Below are positions 13,486-18,938 of a stretch of 32,153 nucleotides of DNA, piece after piece. The notes below the pieces were generated by a model, which worked only from the letters and a program-made list of their open reading frames with translations, did no database searches and was not told where the DNA came from. The position numbers were made by a program, and so were the translations under genes. The stretch is taken from positions 1 to 32,153 of the forward strand of contig CALLJF010000012.1 in assembly GCA_938091495.1 (NCBI GenBank), written 5' to 3'. The stretch's first letter is position 1. Each line of letters opens with the position of its first letter. Origin of the DNA: an uncultured Nitrososphaerales archaeon. GTDB lineage: Archaea > Thermoproteota > Nitrososphaeria > Nitrososphaerales > JACAEJ01.

Positions 13486-15678
13486 TTGCCAAGATATAAA
13501 ACAACTGCTGAAGCCTTGAAAATCATAAGGAACAAAGATCAGATTAGGAACATAGGAATAATCGCCCATGTCGACCATGGAAAGACCACGATGAGTGATA
13601 GTTTGCTTGCTGCTTGTGGTATGTTAAGTCCTTCGGTGGCAGGTCAGGCTTTGGCTTTAGATTACATGGATCTTGAGCAACAAAGGCAGATGACCATCAA
13701 AGCTGCCAACGTTACTCTATATTACGAGTACAAGAATACGCCTTACGTGATAAACTTGATAGATACTCCCGGGCACATAGACTTTACAGGAAAAGTAACC
13801 AGAAGTCTTAGAGCGATAGATGGTTGTGTTGTGGTTATAGACGCTGTGGAAGGAGTAATGACTCAGACTGAGACTGTTACTCGACAGGCTTTGGAAGAAA
13901 GAGTTCGTCCTGTTTTATACATAAATAAGATAGATCGCTTGATCAAAGAGCTTCGCTTAACTCCAGAGAAGATGCAGAACTGGTTAGCAAACATAGTGAA
14001 TGACTTTAACCAATTGATCGACATTTATGCTGAGCCTGAATTCAAAGAAACTTGGAAGGTTAGCATACCTCGTAATTCAGTGGCCTTTGGTTCCGCAAAG
14101 GATCGATGGGGCCTCAACTTTATGATAGCTCAGCAAAAAGGAGTTAAATTTAGCGATATAGTAAAAGCTTACAATGAAGGTAATGAGGCTGAATTAGCCG
14201 AAAAGCTTCCTTTACATGAAGCAGTCTTGTCCATGGTCATAGAACATCATCCTCCACCCCATTTTGCCCAAAAGTATCGTATCCCAAGGATTTGGAAGGG
14301 AGATCTAGATTCAGAAGTAGGAAGATCCCTTCTATCCTGTGATGAGAATGGACCAAAAGTCATGATGATAACGAACGTTATAGTAGATCCACAGGCAGGA
14401 GTGGTAGCTGTAGGTAGACTTTTTTCAGGCAGTATTAGTGATGGTGATATTGTCTACTTGTCAGAAGCTAAAAGAGAGGGAAGAGTACAATCTGTCAATA
14501 TGTTCATGGGACCGTTTAGGGAGATAGTTGGAAGCTTGACAGCAGGCAATATCCCGGCTTTGCTAGGCTTAGAACATGCAAGGGCTGGTGAAACGATATC
14601 GTCAGTAAAGGGCATAGTTCCTTTTGAACAGATAAAGTATGTTTCAGAGCCTGTAGTAACGATAGCTGTAGAATCTAAGTATCCTAGAGATTTACCTAAA
14701 TTAGTGGATTCTCTTAGAAAGCTCAGCATCGAAGATCCAAACCTTATCGTTAGGATCAACGAAGAGACAGGAGAGATGCTCATGTCAGGGATGGGAGTAT
14801 TGCATTTAGAAATAGCCACCACTATGATCCAACAGCAAGGCTTAGAGATAATAACTTCTAAACCTCTTATCAATTATAGAGAAACTATAAGAGGCAAAGC
14901 TGGACCTGTCATGGCAAAGTCTCCCAACAAGCACAACAGAATCTTTATGAGAGTCGAGCCATTACAAGAAGATATAGTAGAACTGATTAGAAATGGTACC
15001 ATTCATGAAGGTCTTGATAGAAAATCTATAGCAAAAATATTGAGAGACAAAGGATGGGATGCAGAAGAAGCAAGAAATGTGGTAACCATAGACAACAGGG
15101 GCAATATTCTCATAGATGCGACAAAAGGTGTTCAGTATATGCAAGAGTCCATAGACATGATAAGGTCTGGTTTCATGGATGTTATGGAGAACGGACCTTT
15201 GGCTTATGAGTATTGCAGAGGAATAAAGGCTATTTTGCACCATGCCGAATTTCATAGCGATCCTGCCCATCGCACATACGCTCAATTGATGCCAGCCTCA
15301 AGGCGATCTTTGCTTGGTGCTTTATTGCTAGCAGATCCTGTTTTACTTGAACCAGTATTAGGTATAGAAGCAAAAGCTCCAACAGAACTAGTAGGTCAAA
15401 TAGTTAGCGTCATCTCTTCCAAGAGAGGTAGAATCCTGACCATAGACCAGAAAGAGTTCACAACAGTTATCATGGGAGAGATACCAGCTGCAGAGACTTT
15501 TGACTTGAGCGAGGTTATGAGGGGCGCTACTGCTGGGAAGGCTTTATGGTCTACTCACTTTAAGATGTGGAGCCCTGTACCATCTAGCATGCTAACAACA
15601 TTGATAGCGGAAGTAAGGAAGAGGAAAGGTTTGAAGCCTGAGCCGCCAAGTCCTGATGAATTTATAGATAAAGAATGA
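13486..15678 (+). CDS. fusA: Translation elongation factor 2 (EF-2)
   Basis: GTPase that translocates the ribosome. All domains are present over 730 residues: the G domain with IIAHVDHGKTT, DTPGHIDF and NKID; the switch region LEQQRQMTIKAAN, which resembles crenarchaeal EF-2; and the C-terminal end RKRKGLKPEPPSPDEFIDKE, typical of archaeal EF-2. The diphthamide histidine is His595 in the domain IV loop. The loop reads DPAHRTYAQLMPASRR where most archaea have HRGPAQ and eukaryotes HRGGGQ. The start is TTG 13486, giving the conserved MPRYK. A nearby ATG at 13479 is in another frame and terminates at once. AGTGATG just upstream acts as ribosome site. It is transcribed downstream of hxlB with a 100-bp AT-rich gap. 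Confidence 0.97.
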   Translation: MPRYKTTAEALKIIRNKDQIRNIGIIAHVDHGKTTMSDSLLAACGMLSPSVAGQALALDYMDLEQQRQMTIKAANVTLYYEYKNTPYVINLIDTPGHIDFTGKVTRSLRAIDGCVVVIDAVEGVMTQTETVTRQALEERVRPVLYINKIDRLIKELRLTPEKMQNWLANIVNDFNQLIDIYAEPEFKETWKVSIPRNSVAFGSAKDRWGLNFMIAQQKGVKFSDIVKAYNEGNEAELAEKLPLHEAVLSMVIEHHPPPHFAQKYRIPRIWKGDLDSEVGRSLLSCDENGPKVMMITNVIVDPQAGVVAVGRLFSGSISDGDIVYLSEAKREGRVQSVNMFMGPFREIVGSLTAGNIPALLGLEHARAGETISSVKGIVPFEQIKYVSEPVVTIAVESKYPRDLPKLVDSLRKLSIEDPNLIVRINEETGEMLMSGMGVLHLEIATTMIQQQGLEIITSKPLINYRETIRGKAGPVMAKSPNKHNRIFMRVEPLQEDIVELIRNGTIHEGLDRKSIAKILRDKGWDAEEARNVVTIDNRGNILIDATKGVQYMQESIDMIRSGFMDVMENGPLAYEYCRGIKAILHHAEFHSDPAHRTYAQLMPASRRSLLGALLLADPVLLEPVLGIEAKAPTELVGQIVSVISSKRGRILTIDQKEFTTVIMGEIPAAETFDLSEVMRGATAGKALWSTHFKMWSPVPSSMLTTLIAEVRKRKGLKPEPPSPDEFIDKE

Positions 15679-15738
15679 CGCTAAAAGATTTAAAATTCAT
15701 AACAAAATACCTATCAAGAGCAGGGCAAGTCTCAGGGA

Positions 15739-15746
15739 AGGTGAGG
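15739..15746 (+). promoter_or_regulatory. Ribosome binding site pointing to a CTG start
   Basis: AGGTGAGG is a near-perfect archaeal ribosome site (GGTGA core). The codon at normal distance (8-nt spacer) is CTG 15755; no ATG, GTG or TTG in the glycosyltransferase frame lies close by. Confidence 0.6.
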
Positions 15747-15754
15747 ACTAAGCA

Positions 15755-16444
15755 CTGGCTCCAATTTATAGTATATGCATAACCAATTATAATACGATAG
15801 ATACTATTAGAGAGTCTTTAGAGAGCATATTAAACCAAATCGATGATAGGTTTGAAGTTATAGTTGTGGATAACTATAGCACAGATGGCTCTAGAGAAAT
15901 ATTGGAGAATTATGCAAGGCAAGGAAAGATAAAACTAATACTTGAGAAATGCACGAGAGGGCGTGGAAGACAGATAGCCTTTGAAAACTCACAGGGAGAC
16001 TATATAATCTCAGGCCTTGACATGGATGATGTATTCTATCCAGTCCTTAAAGAAATACTCAAGATATATCACTCAAAGTATGAAGGTTGCGTTGGTTTAA
16101 CGAAGGGCCAGATAAGCCCTAGATGGGTTGCTAAAGCAGTTGGCTGGAAGGACTTGCAGTCCAGAGAGGATATGGATTACATAAGAAGAGCTTCAAAACT
16201 TGTACCTGTTGTGGAATTGTATCCGATGGATAAATTCGTAAGGATAGGAAAGAATTTCTGGCGAAAGAATTTAATTAACAGGGCAAGGGAGCGTTTCATA
16301 AAGTATCTTTGTATGTATGAGTTGGGAGAGAACCCTTGGAAAGTAGAGATAAGGCTGAATCCATGGTACGATAAGTTTCCTCTTGTAATAATAGCGATCC
16401 TGGCAAAGATTTGGAAGAGAACTCATAAGGTCAGGATCATATAA
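15755..16444 (+). CDS. Family 2 glycosyltransferase with probable CTG start
   Basis: GT-A fold glycosyltransferase. The frame upstream of the first GTG (15866) is open back to TAA 15749-15751 and encodes the classic GT2 N-terminus YSICITNYNTIDTIRESL, followed by FEVIVVDNYSTDGSREIL. Starting at GTG would delete this essential first strand and nucleotide loop. The only well-placed codon is CTG 15755, eight bases after AGGTGAGG. That gives 229 residues with the DxD-like motif LDMDDVF near residue 90. The C-terminal region is basic and has a hydrophobic stretch (FPLVIIAILAKIW) that may associate with the membrane. It follows EF-2 by 76 bp. Alternatives are an ATT start with poorer spacing or a mutated ATG. 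Acceptor and donor are unknown; a role in surface glycans fits the neighbourhood. Confidence 0.82.
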   Translation: MAPIYSICITNYNTIDTIRESLESILNQIDDRFEVIVVDNYSTDGSREILENYARQGKIKLILEKCTRGRGRQIAFENSQGDYIISGLDMDDVFYPVLKEILKIYHSKYEGCVGLTKGQISPRWVAKAVGWKDLQSREDMDYIRRASKLVPVVELYPMDKFVRIGKNFWRKNLINRARERFIKYLCMYELGENPWKVEIRLNPWYDKFPLVIIAILAKIWKRTHKVRII

Positions 16445-16626
16445 GAGAATTAATAGATATGACGTTAGCTAGACTTGTGATAGTAATCCTATTTAAATAA
16501 AGAAGTAAGATTGGTCAATATAAAGTCCTTCAGGTTGAACTCATACTAACAGATATTCTTCAACTATTTATAGTTTCTGTAAGCTATAATAAGTTTCTTT
16601 TCCTTTGATATTGAAAATTTTAATTT

Positions 16627-16902
16627 TTAACTTTTTGGGTTATTTCTCTTAGTCTTTCTTTGATGACTCTCCAGAATAACGCCAATGTTAGTATACACTA
16701 AGAAAGAGTAGTCGGGTGAAAACCCAATATCTTCTGGTAAAACACACTCTTTATTCATGTGCACGTACTCAGCATTAGTAAGTCCTTTTGAATAAGCAAA
16801 CCTGTTAATCATAGCTATCAAGTAAACAAGCCATAGATCGACACATGTACCATGCTCTAAGCACCTAGCATTTTTAGATTTGATGTCAATAAGTAAATCC
16901 AT
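16627..16902 (-). CDS. Hypothetical protein, no family recognised
   Basis: A 91-residue ORF from ATG 16902. It has three cysteines (ARCLEHGTC and NKECVLP), a hydrophobic helix (VDLWLVYLIAMINRFAY) and a basic tail (HQRKTKRNNPKS). Composition looks protein-like, so it may be real. No ribosome site is clear. In the same frame upstream, separated by a TAG at 16909-16911, an open segment of 29 codons from TTG 16998 reads LAVVLELVISRAIKEARQFC and on. The ORF could therefore be the C-terminal part of a broken longer gene. It lies between a plus-strand GT2 gene and the minus-strand FkbM gene in a region rich in damaged genes. Confidence 0.4.
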   Translation of the reverse strand: MDLLIDIKSKNARCLEHGTCVDLWLVYLIAMINRFAYSKGLTNAEYVHMNKECVLPEDIGFSPDYSFLVYTNIGVILESHQRKTKRNNPKS

Positions 16903-17019
16903 CTTTAACTAGAATAAATGTTTACGATTCACTTCATTACAAAATTGCCTTGCTTCCTTAATGGCTCGGCTGATTACCAACTCCAGCACAACTGCCAAGT
17001 TAACCTAATTAATACTGGG

Positions 17020-17775
17020 TCAATAGGCAAAAACGTAACTCCAATTAATTCCTCTCTCTACATCTTCGACTTTATAACCATACTTCGATAAGAGAGCAAT
17101 GACCTTGTCCCTATTCGAACGCCACAGTTCCCTATCCGACTCTGCCCCTTCCACGTCTATCTTTATCCAGTCGACACGCTTTATATTATGATCTCTTATC
17201 ACTTCATCCATAGGGTAAACATCAACTTCGATAAATCCACAATGTTTATCTTCGACAAATGAATGGTGCCCATGACTTCTCCCGATGAAAAGTCTTAGCT
17301 TGGCTCTTGAACTCCATGCGCCTATATTCAAAGCTATTACATTACCAAGATTATTGAGCTCTACGTTTCTCTTCAAGATAGAGAAGTTATCTGGATGAGC
17401 TTCAACTGCTAAAACCTTACCAGTGTACCTAGCAAGACCTAACGCATATTTGCCTATATGTGCGCCAATGTCGATAAAGACATCCTCCTTATGGGGCTTA
17501 ATTATTCTGACAATATCTTTCTCAAAAGAAGGAGAAACGATCTTGTAGTCATCGTGGTTACGAATTATATATTTTATACCATGAATAATAACGATCCCAC
17601 TAAGATTTTCATCTACGCGTTTTCTTAATAAAACATATGCACGCCCTCTGAAGACTTTTGGCACTGATGCTAAAATACACCATTTAAGAAATCTGAACTT
17701 ATAAAATCCCTTCCAATACCTTATTGACAAAAGACTCTGAGTAACATCCCTTATATATCCAATTAACGAGGGCAT
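17020..17775 (-). CDS. FkbM family methyltransferase with internal deletion
   Basis: SAM-dependent methyltransferase of the FkbM type, often O-methylating sugars in surface glycans. The SAM site is present: VFIDIGAHIGKYALGLAR (about residues 98-115) and VLAVEAHPDNFSILKRN. The later motif WIKIDVEGAE is also present, but the next residues are SDRELWRSNRDKVIALL. In relatives, VEGAE is followed by a helix and strand of about 20-25 residues before the I-E-x-W segment. Here the strand and helix seem to have been removed in frame, so the fold core is probably disturbed. Otherwise the ends look complete (251 residues, ATG 17775). The start codon directly abuts the stop of the GT4 gene (TGA-ATG), so the two form an operon. 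Confidence 0.83.
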   Translation of the reverse strand: MPSLIGYIRDVTQSLLSIRYWKGFYKFRFLKWCILASVPKVFRGRAYVLLRKRVDENLSGIVIIHGIKYIIRNHDDYKIVSPSFEKDIVRIIKPHKEDVFIDIGAHIGKYALGLARYTGKVLAVEAHPDNFSILKRNVELNNLGNVIALNIGAWSSRAKLRLFIGRSHGHHSFVEDKHCGFIEVDVYPMDEVIRDHNIKRVDWIKIDVEGAESDRELWRSNRDKVIALLSKYGYKVEDVERGINWSYVFAY

Positions 17776-18891
17776 TCATCTCACTTCGTCTATTATCTCT
17801 ATCATTCTTTTTTGAAAGGCTTCTTCTGAAAACTTTTTGGCTATTTCTGGAAATTGTGGCGCAAGATTATCGTTCTTTCCATCTAATGTTTCAACTAATT
17901 TCAAAGTGAAATCATCAATACCATTGTATCTAAGCTGGGAAAAAGGAACTATCTCGGGAGCACCTCCAGAATTATGGACTATTGGAATGCATCCCGCACT
18001 CATAGCCTCTACTATGACCAGACCAAACGGTTCATCCTTCATGCTATGTACAAAGATTTTAGCCTTCGAAACTATTTCAACAAGTCTCTTAAAAGGTATA
18101 TTCTCATGTAGTATTATGTTTTTTAATCCTAGTTTATTTATCTCCATCTTTATTTTATTAAGCATGATTTTGCTAGAAGGAGTTCTGATAGTGCCAATCA
18201 TGTGTAACTTCTCTTCCCTGCCCATTTTTTGAAGTCTTTCCATCACTCTAACTTGTAATAATTGGTTTTTCTCTTGGGAGAATCTGCTCACACTAACTAT
18301 ATCTTGCTTTTCATCGAATGGAATATCATTCTTCCATTTGTTAATTTCAACTGGAGGATAAACTACTTCTGGATAAATACCCCAAACTCTTTGGCACCAT
18401 TTCGCAGTAAAATGACTGTTAGCCAACAATCTTGTGTATCTAAGATTCTTGATAGCACTATTGACTATCCCATAAAAAGGCAGAAAGTAGGCTCTCCAAA
18501 AACCATGCCTATATTTGCCTGCTCTATCTAACTCTGCTGTAACAGGGAAGTGGCAATAGGTAATCTCAGGTATCTTTCCAAACCATAACGGTAATATTGT
18601 TCCACTAATATCTATCAATAACTCATTCTTCTTTCGGTAGAATCTTACTAATGAGTGGTTGATCAGGTTCTGATAAATACCAAACAATGGGAGATCAAAT
18701 GTTATTGTGTTGACTATCTCTGCATTTATTTTCTTGCCGAAAATCCTTGCTATGTCTTCGTTATTTACTCCACCACTACAATAGAGAGTAACATCATGAC
18801 CCTCATTTTCTATTGCTTCTACTAGACTTATTGTTGTTCTTTCAACGCCGCCCAATGTATTAAGGTACGTGCTTATAACGCCTATCTTCAT
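17776..18891 (-). CDS. Family 4 glycosyltransferase, Alg11-like
   Basis: GT-B fold retaining glycosyltransferase of 371 residues. The N-terminal domain begins KIGVISTYLNTLGGVERTTI, with the glycine-rich donor-domain loop. The C-terminal domain has VSVSRFSQEKNQLLQVRVME and the GT4 signature KDEPFGLVIVEAMSAGCIPI followed by HNSGGAPEIV. The mid-region LLANSHFTAKWCQRVWG with VVYPPVE resembles Alg11-type mannosyltransferases that extend dolichol-linked oligosaccharides. It probably adds a sugar to a lipid-linked or protein-linked glycan at the cytoplasmic membrane face. It is the first gene of a two-gene operon with the FkbM methyltransferase and diverges from the epimerase gene. ATG at 18889-18891; no ribosome site is seen, and an AATTTATC box about 31 nt upstream suggests a short leader. 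Confidence 0.9.
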   Translation of the reverse strand: MKIGVISTYLNTLGGVERTTISLVEAIENEGHDVTLYCSGGVNNEDIARIFGKKINAEIVNTITFDLPLFGIYQNLINHSLVRFYRKKNELLIDISGTILPLWFGKIPEITYCHFPVTAELDRAGKYRHGFWRAYFLPFYGIVNSAIKNLRYTRLLANSHFTAKWCQRVWGIYPEVVYPPVEINKWKNDIPFDEKQDIVSVSRFSQEKNQLLQVRVMERLQKMGREEKLHMIGTIRTPSSKIMLNKIKMEINKLGLKNIILHENIPFKRLVEIVSKAKIFVHSMKDEPFGLVIVEAMSAGCIPIVHNSGGAPEIVPFSQLRYNGIDDFTLKLVETLDGKNDNLAPQFPEIAKKFSEEAFQKRMIEIIDEVR

Positions 18892-18938
18892 CTACGTTCA
18901 TACTCTGGAATCTTATTAGATAAATTTTAACTTTAAGG

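Follow-up and report, generated by a model that had tools for sequence, protein, structure and literature searches.

A Shine-Dalgarno-led CTG as the probable start codon of a glycosyltransferase gene, and probable recurrent near-cognate start codons, in a lineage of Nitrososphaeria

In bacteria, the translation-factor gene infC keeps a poor start codon, AUU, and start codons are discriminated by IF3. Eukaryotic initiation scans, and archaea share with eukaryotes the eIF2-type delivery of the initiator. CUG is considered the strongest near-cognate start codon in eukaryotes, according to an excerpt of PMC11706245. With respect to archaea, passages of a 2020 review state that AUG, GUG and UUG serve in all mRNA types, and CUG is absent from the text of the review (PMC7531240). 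Likewise, no documentation of CUG (CTG) initiation in an archaeon was found in titles and abstract openings of the open-licence literature, among the matches listed. The present analysis concerns a gene for a family 2 glycosyltransferase (GT2) of an uncultured Nitrososphaerales archaeon, which a first-pass annotation had proposed to start at CTG. The window, i.e. the whole stretch of DNA analysed, corresponds to positions 1 to 32,153 of contig C12 (CALLJF010000012.1) of a genome termed G000 (1.386 Mb in 59 contigs), whose nearest named relative in a scan of genome contigs is the metagenome-assembled genome (MAG) Nitrososphaeria archaeon DRTY6_bin.138.

Judged from sequence, GT2 is probably initiated in a Shine-Dalgarno (SD)-dependent manner at the CTG at 15755..15757 on the forward strand, with near-cognate starts being recurrent in this lineage of Nitrososphaeria. 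Eukaryotic CUG initiation employs the same codon, but eukaryotes scan, whereas here the codon would be placed by the SD site. Bacterial near-cognate starts such as the AUU of infC share with the archaeal gene for aIF6, described below, a near-cognate codon behind an SD on a translation-factor gene. Canonical archaeal starts are, like the proposed start of GT2, SD-led NTG codons, and the strong-SD starts counted in G000 comprise 49 ATG, 33 TTG and four GTG; the difference is that CTG is missing from the AUG/GUG/UUG list of the review. The initial proposal concerned a single odd gene, and comparison between genomes extends it to a habit that recurs across the lineage.

The GT2 gene occupies positions 15755..16444 of the forward strand and consists of 229 codons followed by a stop at 16442-16444, with no other damage in the frame. 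Eight bases ahead of the CTG, as first described, lies the SD site AGGTGAGG (15739..15746, +), which pairs with the 3' end of the 16S rRNA of the same genome. This end reads ...GGATCACCTCC(TTAG), so that an ideal SD would read GGAGGTGAT. Pairing ahead of the CTG amounts to -11.4 kcal/mol, which is stronger than the first quartile (-7.7) of 207 genes with canonical starts in the same genome. The frame is indeed closed upstream by the in-frame TAA at 15749..15751 (+), which bars starts farther upstream and is separated from the CTG by the single codon GCA. Between this stop and the conserved N-terminus there is no ATG, GTG or TTG; the first canonical codon in frame is the GTG at 15866..15868 (+), from which the longest standard open reading frame (ORF) of the frame extends (15866-16444, 192 aa).

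Read from the CTG, the protein matches the Pfam family Glycos_transf_2 (PF00535) with 77.9 bits (cut-off 23.3), residues 6-112 aligning to positions 1-111 of the 168 in the profile, so that family membership includes the N-terminal strand and the product is, by its sequence, a family 2 glycosyltransferase with a predicted role in sugar transfer. Starting from GTG 15866, the score drops to 32.4 bits and the match begins at profile position 34. Hence, the N-terminal part of the fold lies upstream of the GTG, and thus of every ATG, GTG and TTG in frame, in agreement with the first-pass annotation.

The argument for the start nonetheless rests on an orthologue and not on the chance probability of the eight-base SD motif. 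A contig scan and a search of 61 genomes yielded GT2 matches in four of the 61, the window's own genome counted, and among them a single close orthologue, 89% identical over the full length, which lies on an 87,265-base contig from the same genus (L002 = L003). The sequences around the start read GTGAGGGTTGAGTAATGGCTCC in the orthologue and GTGAGGACTAAGCACTGGCTCC in the window, and align without a gap from the SD into the gene; a frame-disrupting indel near the start was thus rejected. Precisely in the column of the CTG the orthologue carries the ATG for which relatives were to be inspected, preceded one codon earlier by an in-frame stop in both sequences (TGA in the orthologue). The GTGAGG part of the SD is kept as well, with a pairing of -7.6 kcal/mol. 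A start of homologues at the internal GTG, which had been named as grounds for abandoning the CTG, fails for this orthologue, in which the GTG is replaced by GTT. Between the window and the orthologue, the ratio of nonsynonymous to synonymous substitution rates (dN/dS) is 0.075 over the whole gene, and within codons 2-37 it is 0.055 (11 synonymous, four nonsynonymous differences). Codons 2-37, ahead of the internal GTG, consequently evolve as coding sequence under purifying selection, which together with the orthologous ATG lends support to the CTG start as originally proposed. In addition, two further genomes hold three more distant matches, two of which have ATG one codon past the CTG column. 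The third (L004 in G054, 55% identity, about 1480-1500) is devoid of ATG, GTG or TTG near its N-terminus and reads TGA TGG CAC ATT CTC AAA TAT AGC, with ATT two codons after the in-frame TGA.

Near-cognate codons at start columns are not confined to GT2. For a comparison of start codons, 645 kb of G000 (47% of the genome) were set against parts of two genomes from the same genus, G002 (689 kb) and G001 (370 kb), yielding 327 distinct G000 ORFs with a reciprocal partner of at least 150 bits and differences concentrated at third positions, a few antisense shadows included. Candidates were those ORF pairs in which conservation extends upstream of the first canonical start; they were read by eye, and antisense shadow ORFs, conserved leaders before an ordinary ATG, TTG or GTG, and cut genes were dropped. 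Since this screen overlooks ORFs in which a canonical codon happens to fall close to the true start, the cases found represent a minimum; SD energy alone was rejected as a start caller, being too noisy for a genome-wide rate. In G000, five genes are without a usable ATG, GTG or TTG: GT2 (CTG), aIF6 (CTG), an Lsm-like gene (CTG), a gene for a tRNA-binding-domain protein (ATA) and LysW (ACG), whose ORF pair scores 107 bits and hence lies outside the 327 ORFs. Except for GT2, the codon in G002 is identical to that in G000. A sixth gene, ArgG, carries CTG in both genomes, but is devoid of any canonical alternative in G002 only, since the G000 copy has an ATG two codons before the CTG, three bases after GGAGG. 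The Pfam names of these genes, GT2 aside, are eIF-6, LSM, tRNA_bind, Zn_ribbon_LysW and Arginosuc_synth. Weaker cases comprise a VIT-like gene (perhaps ATT), a PfkB-like gene of G002 (perhaps ATA) and a Cdc6-like gene of G001, which has ATA where G000 has GTG. In this Cdc6/Orc1-like gene, named by eye (L066, about 233-260), the first canonical codon lies 23 codons into the aligned part.

The orthologous start columns of aIF6, ArgG, the Lsm-like gene and LysW were followed through 31 genomes per gene, with start regions displayed for 20 of 30, 20 of 30, 16 of 22 and 15 of 30 loci, respectively. The aIF6 gene has CTG at its start column in all seven displayed genomes of the family (G000-G006; L145-L151), and in three of them (G000, G001 and G002) CGA CTG immediately follows a TAA. 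Among the displayed loci of other families, 12 of 13 are canonical (seven ATG, five TTG), and the remaining one, in G014, has GTG two codons upstream. ArgG exhibits CTG in six of the seven family genomes and TTG in the seventh, with ATG or GTG two or three codons before the CTG in G000, G001, G003, G004 and G006; elsewhere the column is canonical in 11 of 13 loci, and TTG follows one codon later in the other two. The Lsm-like gene starts its column with CTG in G000-G003, ATG in G004 and TTG in G005, the G006 copy being cut by a contig end and not displayed, while ten loci from other families comprise seven canonical codons and three CTG (families f12, f13 and f16), the f13 copy with two GTG codons upstream.

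For LysW, G000 and G002 display ACG after GGAGGTGA, G003 has GTG and G004-G006 have ATG, while the only match in G001 resembles a second LysW copy. The nine displayed loci of other families include three with ATG at the column, two with CTG (f12 and f16) and three with ATG or GTG within two codons; in G025 (f4), CTG occurs one codon upstream of the column, after an in-frame TGA. The gene for the tRNA-binding-domain protein, which is located outside the window on the same contig (G000:C12:64405-64734; L075, relatives L076-L083), found matches in 37 of 41 genomes, with start regions displayed for 24 of 30 loci. Behind GGAGGGA or GGAGAGA it has ATA in G000-G003 and ATT in G004-G006, the latter three with a further ATA two codons earlier. 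Matches from f7 and f16 show ATA, ATC or ATT at the start column, and several others (f4, f6, f12, f13, f14, f17) have TTG or ATG at or beside it. In general, the displayed homologues from other families mostly carry ATG, TTG or GTG at or beside these columns, and a few have CTG. Since the aIF6, Lsm-like and LysW cases are common to several assemblies, the case for CTG starts in the lineage is independent of GT2; the near-cognate codon is conserved between species in these three genes and not in GT2.

At the level of the order, the pattern AGGTGA-N3..9-CTG-AAR-NNN-AAR-TGY-NNN-GAN-TG, which describes a LysW start at CTG, occurs in five of 300 genomes, and the same pattern with ATG, GTG or TTG in three of 300; a control with the reversed pattern gave zero matches among these genomes in either version. 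The counts are no rate, because most genomes match neither pattern, and the ACG of the G000 LysW falls outside the CTG version. The CTG copies come from five assemblies, in each case on a different contig, and the LysW protein is complete in all of them. In three of them, from one genus in f11 (L267, L268, L269), an in-frame TAG stands directly before the CTG, behind AGGTGA, so that no upstream start is possible. In f12 and f16, two codons separate the in-frame stop from the CTG.

The putative near-cognate starts are preceded by strong SD sites. Across the six G000 genes (GT2, aIF6, ArgG, Lsm-like, LysW, tRNA-binding), SD energies range from -8.0 to -16.6 kcal/mol with a median of -10.25, compared with -5.1 kcal/mol for the 207 canonical-start genes (Mann-Whitney, one-sided, p=0.0004). 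The set is small and includes ArgG with its close ATG, though its members were picked for the missing safe canonical start and not for their SD, and for canonical genes the best energy of several columns was taken, which favours the latter. The VIT-like, PfkB-like (G002) and Cdc6-like (G001) genes were excluded from the comparison, as their start column is uncertain or belongs to another genome.

Several observations weigh against CTG as an accepted start codon of the lineage and of GT2 in particular. Among the triplets behind strong SD motifs of G000, CTG shows no clear excess (three seen, 2.0 expected), and in G001 and G002 it is outside the top 14 triplets; this is in keeping with rarity of CTG starts, yet provides no support for them. 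None of the five genomes with the CTG version of the LysW pattern, as opposed to all three with the canonical one, is among the 197 genomes rated at 90% completeness or more and 5% contamination or less. The sole close orthologue of GT2 found has ATG. Moreover, near-cognate starts may be weak, because ATT initiation in E. coli attains about 0.3% of that at ATG, as quoted in a passage of PMC10666635 citing Hecht 2017. Finally, no changed initiation factor was found: SUI1 (aIF1) matches occur in 30 of 31 genomes, including the seven genomes of the family, and loss of aIF1 as a cause of relaxed initiation is therefore not supported. As to an initiator tRNA with a changed anticodon, a search with ARAGORN, introns allowed, of the 645 kb of G000 returned 16 tRNAs, of which one is for Met (CAT), while a CAG anticodon does not occur among them. 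The same settings gave one intron-bearing Pyl (CTA) call in each of the G000 and G002 stretches, missing from a run without introns on the G000 stretches; it is probably a mis-spliced call of another tRNA.

Upstream of GT2 lies a gene recognized by eye, without a family search, as translation elongation factor EF-2 (13486..15678, +), which ends 76 bases before the CTG and is kept in five of six relatives searched. The stretch thereafter (15679-18900) differs between relatives. In G001, whose EF-2 is 99% identical (L011), unrelated sequence begins at about 15689 and opens, by eye, with a glycosyltransferase-like ORF; a search of that genome did not find a GT2 copy. In G002, GT2 and EF-2 are on different contigs.

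Since EF-2 is followed by different sequence in G001, where GT2 found no match, the gene is dispensable in the genus, and its position in such a variable stretch would suit a CTG that is real but constitutes a recent weak or null allele, with GT2 being poorly translated or decaying. We regard this as unlikely in view of the intact 229-codon frame, the low dN/dS, although this averages both branches and would conceal a recent loss, and an SD that is stronger than that of the relative (-11.4 vs -7.6 kcal/mol). Another rather improbable explanation invokes an error in sequencing or assembly, or a base from a minor strain in the metagenome consensus, behind which the true codon at 15755 would be ATG, as suggested by the ATG of the relative at that column and by the fragmentation of the genome into 59 contigs. 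On the contrary, the frame is otherwise undamaged, and CTG and other near-cognates occupy start columns of further genes common to separately assembled genomes, because of which a real CTG start is unexceptional here. Very improbable, finally, is a start at another codon: GTG 15866, the only standard start that the frame offers in its initial part, is rejected because of the GTT of the orthologue and the loss of 33 profile positions, ATT 15764 (as an instance of a nearer ATT or ATA) lies 19 bases past AGGTGA, and the frame of GTG 15741, which would call for frameshifting, shuts in the relative after four codons (GTG AGG GTT GAG TAA).

With initiation at CTG as the favoured reading, AGGTGAGG would position the small ribosomal subunit such that the CTG is set in the P site, and initiator Met-tRNA would accept CUG despite the mismatch at its first position, so that ribosomes would insert Met and the protein would begin M-APIYSICITNYN (Met-Ala-Pro-Ile-Tyr-Ser). 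An ATG like that of the relative probably gave rise to the CTG next to a strong SD, the strength of which may be what makes initiation work. Since the lineage seems to admit CUG as a start codon repeatedly, and AUA, AUU or ACG occasionally, the unconserved CTG of GT2 may simply be tolerated. The conserved poor codons of aIF6 and the tRNA-binding protein would, by speculative analogy with infC, fit regulation.

Taken together, these results suggest that the archaea in question rely on a wider set of start codons than gene-finding programs allow for. Archaeal annotation is built on AUG, UUG and GUG, and gene finders limited to ATG, GTG and TTG would truncate or lose such genes. We lean towards the view that this family and some of its sister families employ CUG as a regular fourth start codon, and more rarely AUA, AUU and ACG, on core genes (aIF6, ArgG, LysW, Lsm-like, tRNA-binding), with strong SDs carrying initiation and the poor codon possibly setting expression, which in the case of aIF6 and the tRNA-binding protein might involve feedback. 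The aIF6 gene, with CTG in seven of seven family genomes, and LysW, with a stop directly before its CTG, would constitute clean reporters of start stringency. Should selection maintain CUG and other near-cognates on the core genes of a family, the stringency with which archaea choose start codons would be lower than assumed, or regulated.
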